From Bifidobacteriaceae bacterium (GTDB taxonomy: Bacteria > Actinomycetota > Actinomycetes > Actinomycetales > WQXJ01), in assembly GCA_031258055.1 (NCBI GenBank), contig JAIRNM010000073.1, positions 1-8,499 on the forward strand: 8,499 bases of DNA. The letters run 5' to 3'. The notes under the pieces were generated by a model, which was not told the DNA's origin, ran no database searches, and was given only the letters and a program-made list of their open reading frames with translations. The position numbers and the translations under genes are program-made. Of this stretch, positions 3,290 through 8,499 are shown in pieces; within the stretch, counting starts at the first letter, position 1, and every line of letters begins with the position of its first letter.

Positions 3290-4084
3290 GTGCACCACGA
3301 CCAGCCCCCGGCGCCGGACCCGGCCGCCGCGAAAGCGCCGCTGGTCATCATCCCCACCTTCAACGAGGTCGAGTCGCTGCCTGGAGTGGTGACCCGGTTA
3401 CGCCGAGCGGTTCCGACCGCCCACATTTTGGTGACCGATGACGCCAGCCCAGACGGCACCGGCGCTTGGGCCGATGCCGCCGCCAGCGCCGACCCTCAAA
3501 TCCACGTCTTGCACCGGGCCGCCAAAGAAGGCTTGGGTAAGGCCTACTTAGATGGCTTCGCCTGGGGCTTGGCGCGGGGCTTCGACCCGCTCATAGAGAT
3601 GGACGCCGACGGGTCGCACCGCCCCGAACAGCTACCGCTGCTGCTGGCCGCCGTGCGGGATGGCGCCGACCTGGCCATCGGCTCGCGATGGGTGCCAGGC
3701 GGCGAAGTCCTCAACTGGCCCCGGCGCCGTAAGTTCCTTTCCCGTGGCGGCAACCTCTATGTCTCCATCATGCTGGGCTTGAGAATCAAAGATTCGACCG
3801 CTGGATTTCGGGCCTACCGCGCTGACCTGCTGCGTTCACTGCCGCTTGAGGGCGTCGAAGCCCATGGCTACGGCTTCCAGGTCAATATGTCGATGGCGGC
3901 GCGAGACGCCGGTGCGCGCATCACTGAAGTGCCGATCAGCTTCCCCGAGCGGGAGGCGGGCGTGTCCAAAATGACCGGCTCGATTGTGCGCGAAGCGATG
4001 TGGCTGGTCACCAAATGGGGCCTAGCCCGCCGCTGGCGTGCCCTCTTCCCCCGCCACCGAACGGCTCAAATCAAGCCTCGCTAG
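3290..4084 (+). CDS. ppm1: Polyprenol monophosphomannose synthase (Ppm1/DPM1-like)
   Basis: This cytoplasmic GT2 enzyme transfers mannose from GDP-mannose to polyprenyl phosphate, making the donor for extracytoplasmic mannosylation of lipoglycans and secreted proteins. The 264 residues carry LVIIPTFNE (18-26), DDASPDGTG (50-58), the catalytic/metal motif MDADGSHRPEQLP (104-116), GSRWVPGG (131-138), NWPRRRKFLSRGGN (142-155) and DSTAGFRAYR (168-177), all characteristic of DPM1-type synthases. There is no C-terminal membrane anchor and no fused apolipoprotein N-acyltransferase domain, unlike M. tuberculosis Ppm1. The start is the GTG at 3290-3292, probably leaderless. It diverges from the GT2/GtrA pair, fitting a shared role in polyprenyl-phosphate sugar metabolism. 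It converges on the LuxR gene with 22 bases between stop codons. Confidence 0.92.
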   Translation: MHHDQPPAPDPAAAKAPLVIIPTFNEVESLPGVVTRLRRAVPTAHILVTDDASPDGTGAWADAAASADPQIHVLHRAAKEGLGKAYLDGFAWGLARGFDPLIEMDADGSHRPEQLPLLLAAVRDGADLAIGSRWVPGGEVLNWPRRRKFLSRGGNLYVSIMLGLRIKDSTAGFRAYRADLLRSLPLEGVEAHGYGFQVNMSMAARDAGARITEVPISFPEREAGVSKMTGSIVREAMWLVTKWGLARRWRALFPRHRTAQIKPR

Positions 4085-4106
4085 AACGCCGCCCGAATTG
4101 CCGCCA

Positions 4107-5600
4107 TTACGCATCAGATCCTGTCAGATTGGCACCAATGGTGTCGATGGCATCTAGCAGTTCCTGTTGCGTGTGAACGCCCATCTTATGGTAGATATGT
4201 TTGATGTGAGTCTTGGCGGTATGGATAGAGATGACCAGCTCCGTGGCAATGAATTGCGCGTTGCGGCCGCGAGCCAGCACGAGTAGCACTTCCTTCTCCC
4301 GCTTTGTCAAATTATGCTCATCGCCAATGGTTTCGAGTTGCGCTGATAATTCGCGTTCAGCGTTCGCCAGCGATCCTACCCTTTCAACCGGGATCAGCCC
4401 CCACGTTATGGCGCTGGTGGGCTCATTGAGCGAAAAGACTGCCGCGAAGATGAGCAGGAGTACCGTGATCCCACAGATTACCGGCAGGGCGCGGGCTTCA
4501 ACGCCGCCCAGCGCGTACAACAGGACCCATACGCCCACGCCGACGCCAGTGCCCAGACTATGGAACCCCGCCATCCTGCAAAAGGTCAGCATCCCTGGCA
4601 TCGACAACTCGGATGCGATTCTGCTGCTAAGCGTGATCAACAGGATTACCTGATTGCTCCAGACGATAGCGGCCAGGAAGACTAGCAACAGGGGCGAAAC
4701 GTCTTGCTTGAAAAAGGTGGCCAAGAGCAGTGCGCCGACAACCGTCGGCGAAATCAGCTTGAAAAAGAGTTCGACATTTGCGGCAAGCGAGGCGAAGTGG
4801 TTCACGAGAAAGAGCGAACACGCGGCCAGAGCTACTCCGCCGGACAAGACAAGGAGACTATTAGGTGAGAGCCACGCCGGACGTAGACAAAGAGAGAGCA
4901 TCAGGCCTAGGGCCATGCCGTAGGCGACGAGGCCGAACGTAGGTCGAATGGACATCTTGAGTTGCTGCCCTGCGGCACGGTCCACCAGCGCGACCCGGCA
5001 CCAGACAGGTGTGAGCCTGGTCTGCCAGCTACCGACACCGGCCACCAGCGTCACGATGACCAGCATCATGCACGACACCATCCCGAGCCAAAATGACAGC
5101 ATTCGAAGAAGGCATCGTAACGCGAGCCCGCAGCCGGTGACCATGATTGACAATGGAATGATCAAAGACGCCTTTCTTGCGTCGATTACGCCCAGAAGTT
5201 CACCGCACAACATCGCCAGGGGGCTAAGACCAATTCCGAGAATGGCCAGGCCGAGCGAATGACACCAAGCAGGAATACCGCCAGCGCCTGAAACCGCGCT
5301 CAGCACAGCACCGCACCCCGCGACGGCCGTTGAGCTCAGGAGCAGTCTCCGTTGGGCATGGACCGGTACCACGAGGTCTCTGAATCCATAGAGCAGGAAG
5401 TAGCCTAGCCCGTTTGCAACAAAGAACACCGCCCAGGCCAGAAACAACTGGGTAGGGTAGCTCGTCAAGAAAGAGTCAACAACAAGGTCCCGCGAACTGA
5501 ATATAGGCATCGCCGCCCACAACGCGCCTAATGCTAGACAAAACAAGGGAACTTGCCCTCGCCCGCTTTCCGCCGCCGTCCCGTCTTGTTCGATGCGCAC
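4107..5600 (-). CDS. Twelve-transmembrane LuxR-type transcriptional regulator
   Basis: This is a 497-residue membrane-embedded DNA-binding protein. Twelve hydrophobic spans can be counted (about 17-34, 50-71, 86-108, 112-139, 144-164, 168-189, 219-240, 246-267, 280-298, 301-324, 338-363, 371-391), arranged six plus six around a charged loop (190-218), like a transporter fold. A linker (392-429) leads to a LuxR/FixJ HTH (430-487) containing LTKREKEVL, IATELVIS, HTAKTHIKHIYHKMGV. There is no receiver or PAS domain, so the membrane part is the likely sensor. The GTG at 5598-5600 is chosen because AGGAGG (5607-5612) stands 6 bases before it; a TTG at 5657 lacks a ribosome site. The family is abundant in Coriobacteriia, next to the enzymes it controls. 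It lies downstream of the reductase gene on the same strand, with 136 bases between, so regulation of that gene is inferred. Its DNA is clearly less GC-rich than ppm1. Confidence 0.9.
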   Translation of the reverse strand: MRIEQDGTAAESGRGQVPLFCLALGALWAAMPIFSSRDLVVDSFLTSYPTQLFLAWAVFFVANGLGYFLLYGFRDLVVPVHAQRRLLLSSTAVAGCGAVLSAVSGAGGIPAWCHSLGLAILGIGLSPLAMLCGELLGVIDARKASLIIPLSIMVTGCGLALRCLLRMLSFWLGMVSCMMLVIVTLVAGVGSWQTRLTPVWCRVALVDRAAGQQLKMSIRPTFGLVAYGMALGLMLSLCLRPAWLSPNSLLVLSGGVALAACSLFLVNHFASLAANVELFFKLISPTVVGALLLATFFKQDVSPLLLVFLAAIVWSNQVILLITLSSRIASELSMPGMLTFCRMAGFHSLGTGVGVGVWVLLYALGGVEARALPVICGITVLLLIFAAVFSLNEPTSAITWGLIPVERVGSLANAERELSAQLETIGDEHNLTKREKEVLLVLARGRNAQFIATELVISIHTAKTHIKHIYHKMGVHTQQELLDAIDTIGANLTGSDA

Positions 5601-5606
5601 AGGCCG

Positions 5607-5612
5607 CCTCCT
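5607..5612 (-). promoter_or_regulatory. AGGAGG ribosome-binding site fixing the LuxR start
   Basis: A full AGGAGG on the minus strand lies 6 bases before the GTG at 5600. It decides in favour of this GTG over the in-frame TTG at 5657. Confidence 0.8.
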
Positions 5613-5701
5613 CGTTGATGCCGTACCAGCTTCCCTCGCGTGGCAAAGCCCTGTCAAGGTCGGTTTGAGGAGGCTGGGGCGCTTTGACGCATAGTTTTAG
5701 C

Positions 5702-5721
5702 GGCAGGCGAGTGGGCAGGCG
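5702..5721. repeat. GGCAGGCG direct repeat between reductase and regulator genes
   Basis: GGCAGGCG occurs at 5702-5709 and 5714-5721, start points 12 bases apart, in the 136-bp space between the reductase stop and the luxR start. It could be a regulatory pair or chance in GC-rich DNA. I see no convincing terminator in this gap, so cotranscription is possible. Confidence 0.3.
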
Positions 5722-5736
5722 CCACCACCTCAGTAG

Positions 5737-7548
5737 TCACAGTGCGAGGGCGCTCCCGGCCGCTATGTAGCCCATCGTGAATGCCAGCGCGACGGTGCCC
5801 AGCGGCGAATAGCAGGTTCCAAAGGTGGACTCTCCGTTGGCGCCGCCGGTGGTCATACCTCCGGCGAACAAGCCGGGCACCACGTTGCCGTCGGTACCGA
5901 CAACCGCCATATCAGGATCAACGCGCAATCCGACGTTGCTGGAAATGGCGTATGAGCCTATAGCCGCGCCGTAGAAGGGAGGCGTCTTGACGGGAATCAG
6001 CCACTCGGCGGGAAACTCAAGCTCATCATCTACACCGGCAGCGCAGATGCTGTTCCAGTCCTCTACTGCTTTGATGAGGATGTCAGCGTCATAGCTGAGC
6101 TTCTCGGCCAATTCCTCGAGCGTGTCCGCCTGAGCGATTGTTCCTTCCTCTATGGCGCTTTTCGCCCCGGTCTTCCAATCGTGTGGGCCAACAAATTCCG
6201 GCATGCGGTCGATATTCGCCATGTCGGGGGTTATGAGCTTGCGGCAGTAGGTCTGGCCAAAGACCGGCGCGTTCTTCTCATAATCGGCGTCAAAGAACAA
6301 ATGGCCGCAGGCGCCTGGCTGTGTCTGCAGGATTTCCGCCTGGTTGAAGAGAGCGGAACTCTTGCGAACGGGGTCCAACCCCGGAAATTGAGGATAGCGG
6401 CGAGGTGCATGGTCATCGTAGTACGGATATCGTTTACCCTCGGAGGAAATGCCCAACCAGGGCTGCCTTACCAACTGCACATCGCCCCCATAGAGGAAGT
6501 GTGACCATCCAGCCCAATTCATGCCGCCGTCAAAAGCACAGTATGAGTCCCACCCCGAAATCTGAGCACCGGCGCCCAGGCCCATGCGAATGCCCTCGCC
6601 GGTGTCGCTGGTACTGGCCATTGAAGCCTTGCAGCGATTAGCCACAGTGGGCGCATAGGCGGCCAGCATATCCCGATTGTTGAGCATGCCGCCGGTTGTC
6701 AAGATGACGCCTTGCGTAGCCTGAATGAAAGACTCCCCCGACGAGTCGCTGATCTTGACACCAACCACCCGATCACCCTCTTTGACGAGTCCAATCGCCT
6801 CCGCGCCATAGAGAAACTCCGCACCGGCAGCCGCCGCCTTCTCAGCGGTGAAATCGCAAACCGGCATCGCCGCCCCGGCGATAAATCCGTCCTCAGTGGC
6901 GCCCCTCCAACAAAGCCCTGAGCCGAGGACGGGCTCAACCTCCCATTCTGCGCCCCGGTCTTCCATCCAATCGATGAAGGCCGGGCCTTCCTTCAGCAAC
7001 CTACGGATGAGAGGGATGTCTGCCTTCATGCCGGCGGCGCTTGCCATCGCCGTGACGAGGCCCTCATAGTCAAAGGGGACGCCGGCCTCGTTCTGGCAGC
7101 GAGCACCGCCGGGTACCGCGAAAGTCGTCGCCCATTTTGAGCTACCGCCCCAGGCGTTTGTCTTCTCAATACCGATGACAGAGGCGCCTTCCTCCGCCGC
7201 GCGCAGTGAGGCGGCCAGACCGCCGCCGCCAAGGCCAACGACGACGATGTCGGCGGACCTATCCCAACTCGATGGCGGTTCAAGGGGAGCAATTGGGTCT
7301 TTACCGGTGGCAACGGAGTCAGAGGTGTATAAGGAGTTGTAGCCCTCAAACAAAGCTTTAGCTGGCACGTCGCTCGGCGCTTCAGGTGCGGGCGCGGCAC
7401 TTGGTGAGCATCCCGCAAGGGCGACACTGCTCAGGGCCAGACCCCCTCCGGCTGCGAGGGTGCCCTTCATAAGGTCCCTGCGTGAAAGTGTCCGCTGACC
7501 CCGGTTCGCATCGCGCGTACCCGCCGTCTCGCTATGTCTTGCTGCCAT
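5737..7548 (-). CDS. Tat-exported FAD-dependent reductase lipoprotein (fumarate/urocanate reductase superfamily)
   Basis: This 603-residue flavoprotein probably reduces an organic electron acceptor at the outer face of the membrane. The N-terminus has a twin-arginine motif SRRDLMK (22-28), an Ala/Gly/Leu-rich h-region and a lipobox LAGC (44-47), predicting Tat export of the folded, FAD-loaded protein and lipid anchoring at C47. The FAD_binding_2 fold begins with DIVVVGLGGGG (100-110), GIEKTNAWGGSS (126-137) and, near the end, GLFAGGMTTGGANGES (559-574). There is no CxxCH haem motif and no FMN-binding domain, so electrons must come from another protein, none being encoded here. The His and Arg that bind fumarate in flavocytochrome c3 have no counterparts (SYAISSNVG and NGESTFGTCY stand there instead), while Y580-x3-G584 recalls ketosteroid dehydrogenases. 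Nine cysteines occur after C47. The ATG at 7548 has AAGGAAGAGG just upstream. Substrate unknown; fumarate reductase is unlikely. Confidence 0.9.
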   Translation of the reverse strand: MAARHSETAGTRDANRGQRTLSRRDLMKGTLAAGGGLALSSVALAGCSPSAAPAPEAPSDVPAKALFEGYNSLYTSDSVATGKDPIAPLEPPSSWDRSADIVVVGLGGGGLAASLRAAEEGASVIGIEKTNAWGGSSKWATTFAVPGGARCQNEAGVPFDYEGLVTAMASAAGMKADIPLIRRLLKEGPAFIDWMEDRGAEWEVEPVLGSGLCWRGATEDGFIAGAAMPVCDFTAEKAAAAGAEFLYGAEAIGLVKEGDRVVGVKISDSSGESFIQATQGVILTTGGMLNNRDMLAAYAPTVANRCKASMASTSDTGEGIRMGLGAGAQISGWDSYCAFDGGMNWAGWSHFLYGGDVQLVRQPWLGISSEGKRYPYYDDHAPRRYPQFPGLDPVRKSSALFNQAEILQTQPGACGHLFFDADYEKNAPVFGQTYCRKLITPDMANIDRMPEFVGPHDWKTGAKSAIEEGTIAQADTLEELAEKLSYDADILIKAVEDWNSICAAGVDDELEFPAEWLIPVKTPPFYGAAIGSYAISSNVGLRVDPDMAVVGTDGNVVPGLFAGGMTTGGANGESTFGTCYSPLGTVALAFTMGYIAAGSALAL

Positions 7549-7550
7549 GT

Positions 7551-7560
7551 CCTCTTCCTT
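7551..7560 (-). promoter_or_regulatory. Ribosome-binding site of the reductase gene
   Basis: AAGGAAGAGG on the minus strand ends 2 bases before the ATG; its AAGGA core is 7 bases away, a good spacing. It supports the 7548 start, which retains the full Tat signal. Confidence 0.75.
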
Positions 7561-7570
7561 TGCTTAGGGT

Positions 7571-7576
7571 CTTATC
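7571..7576 (-). promoter_or_regulatory. Possible -10 (GATAAG) of the reductase promoter
   Basis: GATAAG matches TATAAT at four of six positions. A start near 7564 would give a leader of about 16 bases containing the ribosome site. There is no recognisable -35, as expected for an activator-dependent promoter. This is an inference from position only. Confidence 0.3.
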
Positions 7577-7592
7577 CGCTCCGACAAATCGG

Positions 7593-7620
7593 CACGCCAC
7601 TGGAGCGCTGGAGTGACGTG
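7593..7620. promoter_or_regulatory. Inverted repeat, candidate operator for the LuxR regulator
   Basis: Arms CACGCCACT (7593-7601) and AGTGACGTG (7612-7620) match at eight of nine positions as a dyad with a 10-base spacer. The element lies 45-72 bases upstream of the reductase ATG. With the GATAAG -10 at 7571-7576 its centre falls near -42, where LuxR-type activators commonly bind. It could also be a hairpin in a leader RNA if transcription starts further upstream. Confidence 0.45.
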
Positions 7621-7646
7621 CCAAAGACTAAGGTGGCGAAACCTGC

Positions 7647-7672
7647 GCGATGACGCATCGCCCCGGCAGGGG
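7647..7672. repeat. Two adjacent small dyads upstream of the reductase promoter
   Basis: GCGATG-ACG-CATCGC (7647-7661) is a perfect dyad with 6-bp arms, and CCCC-GGCA-GGGG (7661-7672) follows directly. They sit 98-124 bases before the reductase start codon and might be further protein-binding sites. GC-rich DNA produces short dyads by chance, so confidence is low. Confidence 0.3.
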
Positions 7673-7718
7673 TATGTGCTGAAAATGTCGTCACACGTTG
7701 CGTGGTACTCGACGGTCA

Positions 7719-7758
7719 GATCAACCGATCAGGCCGAGTGGGGTCGAATTGGTTGATT
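7719..7758. repeat. Imperfect 11-bp inverted repeat
   Basis: Arms 7719-7729 (core CAACCGAT) and 7748-7758 (core ATTGGTTG) pair over 11 bases, with two G-T wobbles and an 18-base loop. It is about 170-210 bases upstream of the reductase start. It may be a distal regulatory site or part of a structured RNA. Confidence 0.4.
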
Positions 7759-7794
7759 CTGCGGGCCACGGCAGGGGCCGCTCCTTCGATGACT

Positions 7795-7874
7795 AGTTGG
7801 GTTGGGTCATCGCCCGCCACTGCCGCCCTCTGCGGGTTTCGTGACCCCGGAACACTCTCACGCTCAACCCAACT
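7795..7874. repeat. Long-range 10-bp perfect inverted repeat enclosing small hairpins
   Basis: AGTTGGGTTG (7795-7804) and CAACCCAACT (7865-7874) are exact reverse complements. Wobble and GC pairs extend the stem inward by three positions. The enclosed 54 or so bases contain CCCGC/GCGGG and GGGT/ACCC stems. The whole 80-bp segment could fold as one branched RNA, or be a small mobile repeat. No family is recognised. Confidence 0.45.
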
Positions 7875-8062
7875 CTCAGATCAGAAAAGGTCACTGATCC
7901 CGTGTTGGTAGCGAATCACAATCGGTGCTTCCGCGACCTCCGGCGCTCAACTCAGCCTTCCGCTCCGCCGCCGAGGTTGGGCTTGCTTGGCCGCCCGCTC
8001 CCGATGCCGCTCACTCCGGCTTACATGAACAGGCTCAAGCTTCATTCCGGTAACTCTACGGT

Positions 8063-8152: not shown

Positions 8153-8499
8153 CTATTGCCGTGACGGTGGTTCGGGTGGTGGTTTTGGTGGCGTGGGTTT
8201 GTGTCCTTGGAGTGTGAATCGGTGGTGGATGATGGGTTGTTGATCGGGGTCTAATTCGGGGGGTGGAGTGAATTCGGGTATGCCGTCTTGTCTGATCCCG
8301 AGATGCCAATATGGTTCACGGTCTCTGGGTGGTTCTATAAGCGCATGATGATGACGGCATAACAACACACAATTCGATAGGCAAGTGTCTCCGTCCACAT
8401 ACCAGGGTTGTATATGGTGCGCTTCAGTCAACCCGACCGGCATGTCACAATTCGGGAACACACAACCTTTATCTCTAAGCTCTAACGCGGCTCTTAGCG
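8153..8499 (-). CDS. HNH endonuclease-domain protein (13E12/DUF222 type), C-terminal part, 5' end outside window
   Basis: The frame is open to the right edge and 114 residues are visible. They begin LRAALELRDKGCVFPNC and contain the HNH core EAHHI (25-29), N42 and CRHHH (47-51), with C12, C17 and C47 placed as zinc ligands. This layout is the C-terminal nuclease module of the actinobacterial 13E12/REP13E12-like proteins, which normally have an N-terminal DUF222 domain, here unseen. The HNH metal and catalytic residues look intact. The tail (about 75-114) is rich in Pro and His. A start at 8461 would cut the zinc site, so the gene certainly continues beyond the window. Codons such as TTA, AGA and CTA and the AT-richer DNA differ from kgd and ppm1. 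These proteins occur in many copies per genome and their role is poorly known. Confidence 0.85.
   Translation of the reverse strand, partial: LRAALELRDKGCVFPNCDMPVGLTEAHHIQPWYVDGDTCLSNCVLLCRHHHALIEPPRDREPYWHLGIRQDGIPEFTPPPELDPDQQPIIHHRFTLQGHKPTPPKPPPEPPSRQ

Follow-up and report, generated by a model that had tools for sequence, protein, structure and literature searches.

How does a bacterium of the class Actinomycetes come to carry a predicted exported flavin reductase directly beside a membrane-bound LuxR-type regulator of the kind described from Eggerthella lenta, and what might the two do together? We addressed this question for an 8,499-nucleotide contig of a Bifidobacteriaceae bacterium (GenBank assembly GCA_031258055.1, contig JAIRNM010000073.1, here C77), the whole of which we call the window; the host genome comprises 2.39 Mb in 439 contigs and is 77% complete. 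We consider it probable that the reductase, RED, and the regulator, REG, together make up a substrate-inducible module for reduction, of the Coriobacteriia type with 10-12-transmembrane-helix (10-12-TM) LuxR regulators, and that this module probably entered an Actinomycetes genus by horizontal acquisition. The type of module is already known and the host class is unexpected, while the function would follow by analogy from characterised relatives. The features concerned are:

5737..7548, minus strand: RED, predicted lipoprotein reductase with flavin adenine dinucleotide (FAD), exported by twin-arginine translocation (Tat), of the flavocytochrome c/urocanate reductase/ketosteroid dehydrogenase superfamily (from domain, fold and sequence)
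7408..7485, minus strand: Tat-like motif SRRDLMK (RED residues 22-28) to lipobox LAGC (residues 44-47), read from the sequence
4107..5657, minus strand: REG, predicted 12-helix membrane LuxR-type regulator (from domain, hydropathy and structure model)
4407..5600, minus strand: membrane domain of REG, residues 20-417, with a predicted major facilitator superfamily (MFS) fold (from the structure model)
4155..4313, minus strand: LuxR/GerE helix-turn-helix (HTH) of REG, residues 449-501 (profile match)

RED lies upstream of REG with 79 bases between them, and coordinates and domains confirm what an earlier sequence-only reading had described, a Tat-lipoprotein FAD reductase and a 12-span protein with a C-terminal LuxR HTH, adjacent and on the same strand. 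Because they extend over 516 codons (REG, from the first TTG) and 603 codons (RED, complete from its ATG) and have domain matches far above curated cut-offs, the frames are not due to chance; the source database holds REG in a form of 497 residues (P0001). A profile search assigned a FAD_binding_2 domain to RED (105 bits), and its structure model (predicted local distance difference test score, pLDDT, of 86) resembles urocanate reductase, flavocytochrome c3 and 3-ketosteroid dehydrogenases (Foldseek E about 1e-30). SRRDLMK and LAGC are predicted to be a Tat signal plus lipobox, and both arginines of the Tat-like motif were at least 90% conserved in a 32-row alignment. For REG, the HTH scored 49.4 bits against GerE/LuxR (pfam00196; cut-off 23.5), a Kyte-Doolittle scan gave 12 hydrophobic spans, and the structure model (pLDDT 81) places 12 long helices in the stretch from residue 35 to residue 410. 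REG thus fits the 10-12-TM LuxR family, having the HTH, 12 N-terminal transmembrane helices and a flavin-enzyme neighbour. Pfam MFS models matched neither REG nor five of its relatives at E 1e-3, GerE alone being found, and for this reason we did not class REG as a transporter despite its predicted MFS fold.

The relatives of RED lie mostly outside the host lineage. We searched 59 genomes, namely the host's own, 9 congeners, 8 more of the family and 41 of the order, and in the 58 relatives the best-scoring match to RED reached 117 bits at 30% identity, against 1,369 bits for RED itself; some short pieces of other proteins were more alike at lower score. The nearest full-length relatives from a protein search were P0029-P0031 (54-55% identity), of which P0031 is labelled Coriobacteriales bacterium, followed by P0032 (50%), P0033 (45%) and P0034 (58% over 62% of RED). 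RED matches at 1e-60 or better were present in 56 of 138 Eggerthellaceae genomes (best 44-45%, with up to 9 candidates scored per genome), and matches at 1e-100 or better in 29 of 396 Coriobacteriia genomes (up to 3 scored per genome). A search of 84,980 species genomes yielded nine named loci with RED relatives. An Eggerthellaceae metagenome-assembled genome (MAG) ranked first at 41%, ahead of Geobacteraceae at 37%, Eggerthella sinensis at 36% and a Proteobacteria MAG at 33%; the Geobacteraceae and Proteobacteria matches imply that the wider RED subfamily is not restricted to Coriobacteriia. A 142-row FastTree placed RED as the sole host-genus row within a 37-row clade (support 100) and grouped it with P0029-P0034 (support 100), and the same seven-row group was recovered with support 99 in a 47-row mixture-model tree; we did not depend on FastTree joins by themselves. 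Holding RED together with 11 other host flavoproteins lowered the log-likelihood by 1,024 and was rejected by the approximately unbiased (AU) test (p 8e-67, 32 rows).

REG pointed in the same direction. Its closest relative, P0002, was 58% identical over 88%, and the other 25 non-self matches each covered at most 39% of the length of REG. Across 246 Actinomycetota genomes (up to 6 candidates scored per genome), non-self matches above 65 bits were confined to two families, f42 (the Eggerthellaceae; 6 genomes) and f56 (1 genome), both belonging to the same class as the Eggerthellaceae genome G122. The assignment of f42 to Eggerthellaceae comes from one row that is identical in an Eggerthellaceae MAG (L064) and in G355:C8, and the genome comparison ranks f42 genomes as sharing the host's phylum, where others share its class; together with the family features listed above, this upholds the Coriobacteria-style architecture that had been proposed. 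REG matched at 1e-17 or better in 82 of 396 genomes of the class of G122, most strongly in G442 (31% over nearly the whole length, 111 bits). Grouping REG with five other host transmembrane LuxR proteins (TM LuxRs) was also rejected (AU p 5e-7, 29 rows with many long branches). The sequence-only reading had called for a phylogeny of both proteins and had named vertical nesting within the host class as the outcome that would speak against it; since the REG matches, the RED clade and the AU tests all point outside that class, no such nesting was found. On these comparisons, a gain of RED and REG across classes, in either direction, is well supported.

We then looked for the pair at other loci, examining nine regions with a RED relative over wider flanks. 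In G442, from the Coriobacteriia set, homologues of RED (39%) and REG (28%) have the same order and strand as in the window. G695 encodes a reductase (38%), a four-haem cytochrome and a TM LuxR (31% over 239 residues), in that order, and G426, the best Eggerthellaceae match, has on one strand a reductase (41%), a three-haem cytochrome, a frame with 9 spans and a separate frame with the HTH (L240, 2638-6756); the last two resemble one TM LuxR divided over two frames. Two further named loci, L066 of Eggerthella sinensis and L069 of an Eggerthellaceae MAG, likewise carry TM LuxRs next to the reductase, in other layouts. A further pair is common to both classes as a unit: in the congener G006 (L169) and in G122 (L185) the reductases are 71% and the regulators 41% identical, and both arrangements are convergent; the regulator of another congener locus, G003 L160, is 77-78% like that of L169. 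Besides RED, four flavoproteins of the genus were nearest to Eggerthellaceae genes at 49-71% (on host contig C18, G003 L146, G003 L148 and G006 L169). The base composition of these contigs matches that of their genomes and so does not suggest contamination, the L169 contig being 3.1 kb long. As a separate observation, the three G695 genes lie on one strand (L238, 2897-7190) and may represent a complete version of the module.

Several observations weigh against a jointly acquired, regulator-controlled module. In six of the nine wider regions the reductase is not followed by a TM LuxR. When 1.5 kb was examined on either side of the 30 best-matching Eggerthellaceae reductases, one locus (L125) showed a full TM LuxR, in two copies, and L130 a cut one. 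The regulator of G442 pairs with REG in a 111-row FastTree (support 98), yet the five rows nearest to REG in a 29-row mixture tree do not include it, and the G442 reductase falls outside RED's nearest group, so the RED and REG trees disagree in detail; congruence between them was sought and not obtained, with some long branches in all trees. Among the six closest RED relatives (P0029-P0034) P0031 alone bears an organism name, and P0002 bears none; any assignment of a donor class must therefore draw on the wider trees. G+C content at third codon positions (GC3) is low for the genome in REG (0.667) and RED (0.684), compared to 0.750 (sd 0.051) in 61 other long open reading frames (ORFs) from the fetched host contigs, yet within its range; it is weak evidence of foreignness because 5% (REG) and 8% (RED) of these ORFs are even lower. 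Around REG and RED, no promoter stood above chance and no LuxR box was identified: positions 4050-8000 contain two promoter-like sites where 1.1 would be expected, both on the plus strand, and three terminator-like sites where 4.0 would be expected, all inside RED. Short inverted repeats upstream of RED, the longest at 7591-7622, are candidates only.

The neighbourhood counts and the differing placement of G442 in the two trees would be expected if RED and REG had been gained separately, with REG controlling something else, or its own gene alone, and standing beside RED incidentally. This explanation has to contend with the shared order and strand in G442, G695 and G426, with the G006/G122 pair found as a unit in both classes, and with the TM LuxRs of the genus that lie within 1.2 kb of flavoproteins (10 of 12 in G003; 4 of 9 in the host, in the window and on C322, C119 and C122). 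We therefore regard separate gains as unlikely and continue to favour a module acquired as a regulator-reductase pair.

What RED reduces, and with which electrons, bears on a second alternative. Fumarate and urocanate reductases use a histidine (in HHT) and an arginine (in NRLGG) near the C-terminus, together with an arginine of the cap domain, as catalytic and substrate residues. In the alignment, RED carries SSN where these enzymes have HHT and, slightly later, ESTFG where they have NRLGG; both motifs are also absent from a 32-sequence RED profile, and the middle part of RED, where the cap-domain arginine would lie, did not align to these reductases. With the active-site histidine and arginine replaced, RED is no classical fumarate or urocanate reductase, and its chemistry is likely to be the reduction of a C=C double bond or a related unsaturated group. 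The best NCBIfam match was VprA vinyl phenol reductase (NF053717) at 162 bits, far short of the 600-bit equivalog cut-off. Respiratory flavin reductases of gut bacteria were reportedly the subject of a 2024 study.

A domain search of RED found no haem or FMN_bind domain of its own, and the REG/RED cassette encodes no cytochrome or other electron carrier or donor. By comparison, 13 of the 30 best Eggerthellaceae loci have a multihaem cytochrome (defined by three or more CxxCH motifs) beside the reductase within the 1.5 kb flanks, and the claim that the module is self-contained was accordingly not borne out. Elsewhere in the host, C194 (L063) encodes NrfH (PF03264) with NrfA and ResB, and C28 (L062) encodes a NapC-type end and a molybdopterin oxidoreductase with a Tat-like motif; an FMN_bind protein had no match in the host genome at its 77% completeness. 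Judging from these gene sets, nitrite and one further acceptor may serve the host in respiration. Outside Actinomycetota, RED relatives (33-37%) have five- or four-haem cytochrome neighbours in the Proteobacteria MAG (L067, 4584-8912) and a Geobacteraceae MAG (L065, 5941-8451). RED could instead be a dehydrogenase or a detoxifying enzyme outside anaerobic respiration: it matches 3-ketosteroid dehydrogenases and urocanate reductase at similar strength, its cassette has no cytochrome, and the fumarate-reductase histidine and arginine are missing. The Tat-like motif and lipobox, the multihaem cytochromes beside its Eggerthellaceae relatives and the NrfH-type cytochromes of the host make such a role improbable in our view, and we retain the reading of RED as an exported reductase.

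The module has company in its genus. We counted TM LuxRs in the host and the congeners G003, G005, G006 and G007. Nine membrane-type HTH proteins or fragments were found on the fetched host contigs, giving a count of eight because the one on C385 (5 spans) is doubtful. G003 contains 12 (11 full); on the few contigs fetched from G006, G007 and G005, the first two showed one each and G005 none. Twenty host ORFs matched the flavoprotein profile, 15 of them with at least 400 residues, of which those on C35 and C50 are probably other FAD enzymes. Some host flavoproteins are shared with congeners at 67-87% identity and are about 28-38% identical to the Eggerthellaceae proteins compared; this sharing between congeners indicates that they have long been resident in the genus. 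In the 142-row FastTree, which has long branches, the host label has to change at least 15 times on strongly supported branches. Hence the proposed transplant into another class held in one respect, presence across classes, as trees and AU tests indicate, and failed in another: a single transplant is rejected because the genus holds many such pairs, some with long-resident reductases.

Three further features of this repertoire were observed. The C385 frame (L032, 3-1838) encodes a 611-residue protein in which about 5 spans accompany a weaker LuxR HTH; it lies upstream of a ClpC-like gene and is perhaps another kind of membrane regulator. G003 has two near-identical regulator-reductase pairs (L142, 2546-4069 and 464-2242; L161, 1861-3357 and 1-1530; regulators 94%, reductases 95%), due either to recent duplication of a whole module or to two strains in one bin (contamination 7%). 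Finally, tandem flavoproteins on C261 (L048, 2-1438 and 1683-3416) are 72% and 68% like a third on C113 (L015) and appear to be recent host paralogues.

To the left of REG and RED, the window contains Kgd (C-terminal part), GtrA, GT2 and Ppm1-like genes, in keeping with the earlier description of a Kgd/Ppm1-bearing actinomycete. The last of these marks the side on which the cassette lies:

3290..4084, plus strand: Ppm1-like glycosyltransferase, a host gene

Its product is 85%, 77% and 75% identical to proteins labelled Bifidobacteriaceae bacterium at NCBI. A Ppm1 match at 1e-60 was present in 13 of 18 family genomes, the host included, and in none of the other 12 does REG or RED lie beside it. 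The order GtrA-GT2-Ppm1 is retained in two of the 12 (G009 and G005), with a 912- or 991-residue protein of 11-13 spans on REG's side. Vertical inheritance from an expanded family long present in the genus, the likeness to Coriobacteriia being retained Actinomycetota ancestry, would accommodate the old flavoprotein lineages and the eight TM LuxRs of the host. It is very unlikely given the 30% best-scoring counterpart in 58 relatives, nine congeners among them, the rejection of one clade with host paralogues for both RED and REG, and the absence of the pair beside Ppm1 in all 12 family genomes. Misassembly or a binning error as the whole story was rejected as unlikely because Kgd, GT2, Ppm1, REG and RED share one contig, the C18 flavoprotein adjoins a putative PNPase gene and several flavoproteins have congeneric orthologues.

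Candidate carriers were also considered. Among 72,556 plasmid records searched with tblastn, 124 had any RED match, none counted as covering 80% and the best row at 24.6% identity, and REG gave one match, to its HTH part only; one scan of viral contigs returned no RED relative. Neither a plasmid nor a virus was thus found as a known carrier. At the right contig end, beside the cassette, lies an HNH endonuclease-type fragment (8153-8497) with a GC3 of 0.46, compared to the genome mean of 0.75.

The pair might work as follows. An organic compound outside the cell would bind the MFS-fold membrane domain of REG and alter the HTH on the inner face, activating the RED promoter and perhaps also the REG gene, which lies downstream in the same orientation. 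After folding, RED would leave the cytoplasm via Tat, stay tethered by its lipid and reduce the very compound that was sensed, with electrons presumably passing from menaquinol through an NrfH/NapC-type multihaem cytochrome encoded elsewhere in the host. A broader proposal, to which we give an even chance, is that MFS transporters gave rise to the sensors of this family, which as one-component switches travel with their reductases across classes, and that this Actinomycetes genus built an Eggerthella-like inducible repertoire by repeated exchange with Coriobacteriia.

According to the main text of a survey of these regulators (PMC9734109), E. lenta has 83 TM LuxRs, 50 of them near flavin enzymes; genes of the 10-12-TM LuxR family usually, though not always, lie near a molybdenum or flavin enzyme; and bacteria with more than 10 such regulators per genome are mostly Coriobacteriia. 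Finding eight in a host genome that is 77% complete, and 12 in its congener G003, makes this Actinomycetes genus stand out against that 'mostly'. If the pair acts as predicted, a lifestyle of sensing one compound and reducing that compound would be transferable between lineages, and a tractable host could serve to read out regulator-reductase pairs taken from uncultured bacteria and so find their substrates. The predicted MFS fold would offer a direct, testable idea of where REG binds its compound. The words 'MFS', 'major facilitator', 'transporter' and 'horizontal' do not occur in the survey's main text. Among the papers listed in literature searches, none gives a detailed account of these regulators outside Coriobacteriia or names their membrane domain as MFS, a prior mention in the survey's supplementary tables being possible; further literature consulted comprised PMC11585353, PMC5953540, PMC12771579 and PMC7024585.

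Among known systems, the closest parallels to REG are DadR, HcdR and CadR, which, in the survey's main text, likewise combine an N-terminal 12-helix domain, a C-terminal LuxR HTH and a redox-enzyme neighbour; deletion of dadR, hcdR or cadR abolishes induction of their enzymes in E. lenta (PMC9734109). The membrane parts of family members are scarcely alike. Those three are tested activators of catechol dehydroxylases in Coriobacteriia, whereas REG, a predicted regulator, has a flavoprotein partner and a host in another class. The MFS transporters 6g9x/6zgs (one with bound 3-phenylpropanoate) and SotB resemble REG residues 20-417 in predicted fold, at 8-17% identity among the matches listed; unlike them, REG adds a DNA-binding domain and has no Pfam MFS match. 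For RED, UrdA and flavocytochrome c3 fumarate reductase (6t85, 1qo8) share the predicted fold at the Foldseek E given above, but RED differs in its replaced C-terminal active-site histidine and arginine and in having neither a haem domain nor FMN_bind. The Tat flavoproteins of Eggerthellaceae (G426, G355, G378 and G373) belong to the same superfamily, at 44-45% identity in the genome search and with many copies per genome; a three-haem cytochrome gene adjoins the reductase in these four, whereas in the window that neighbour is a TM LuxR.

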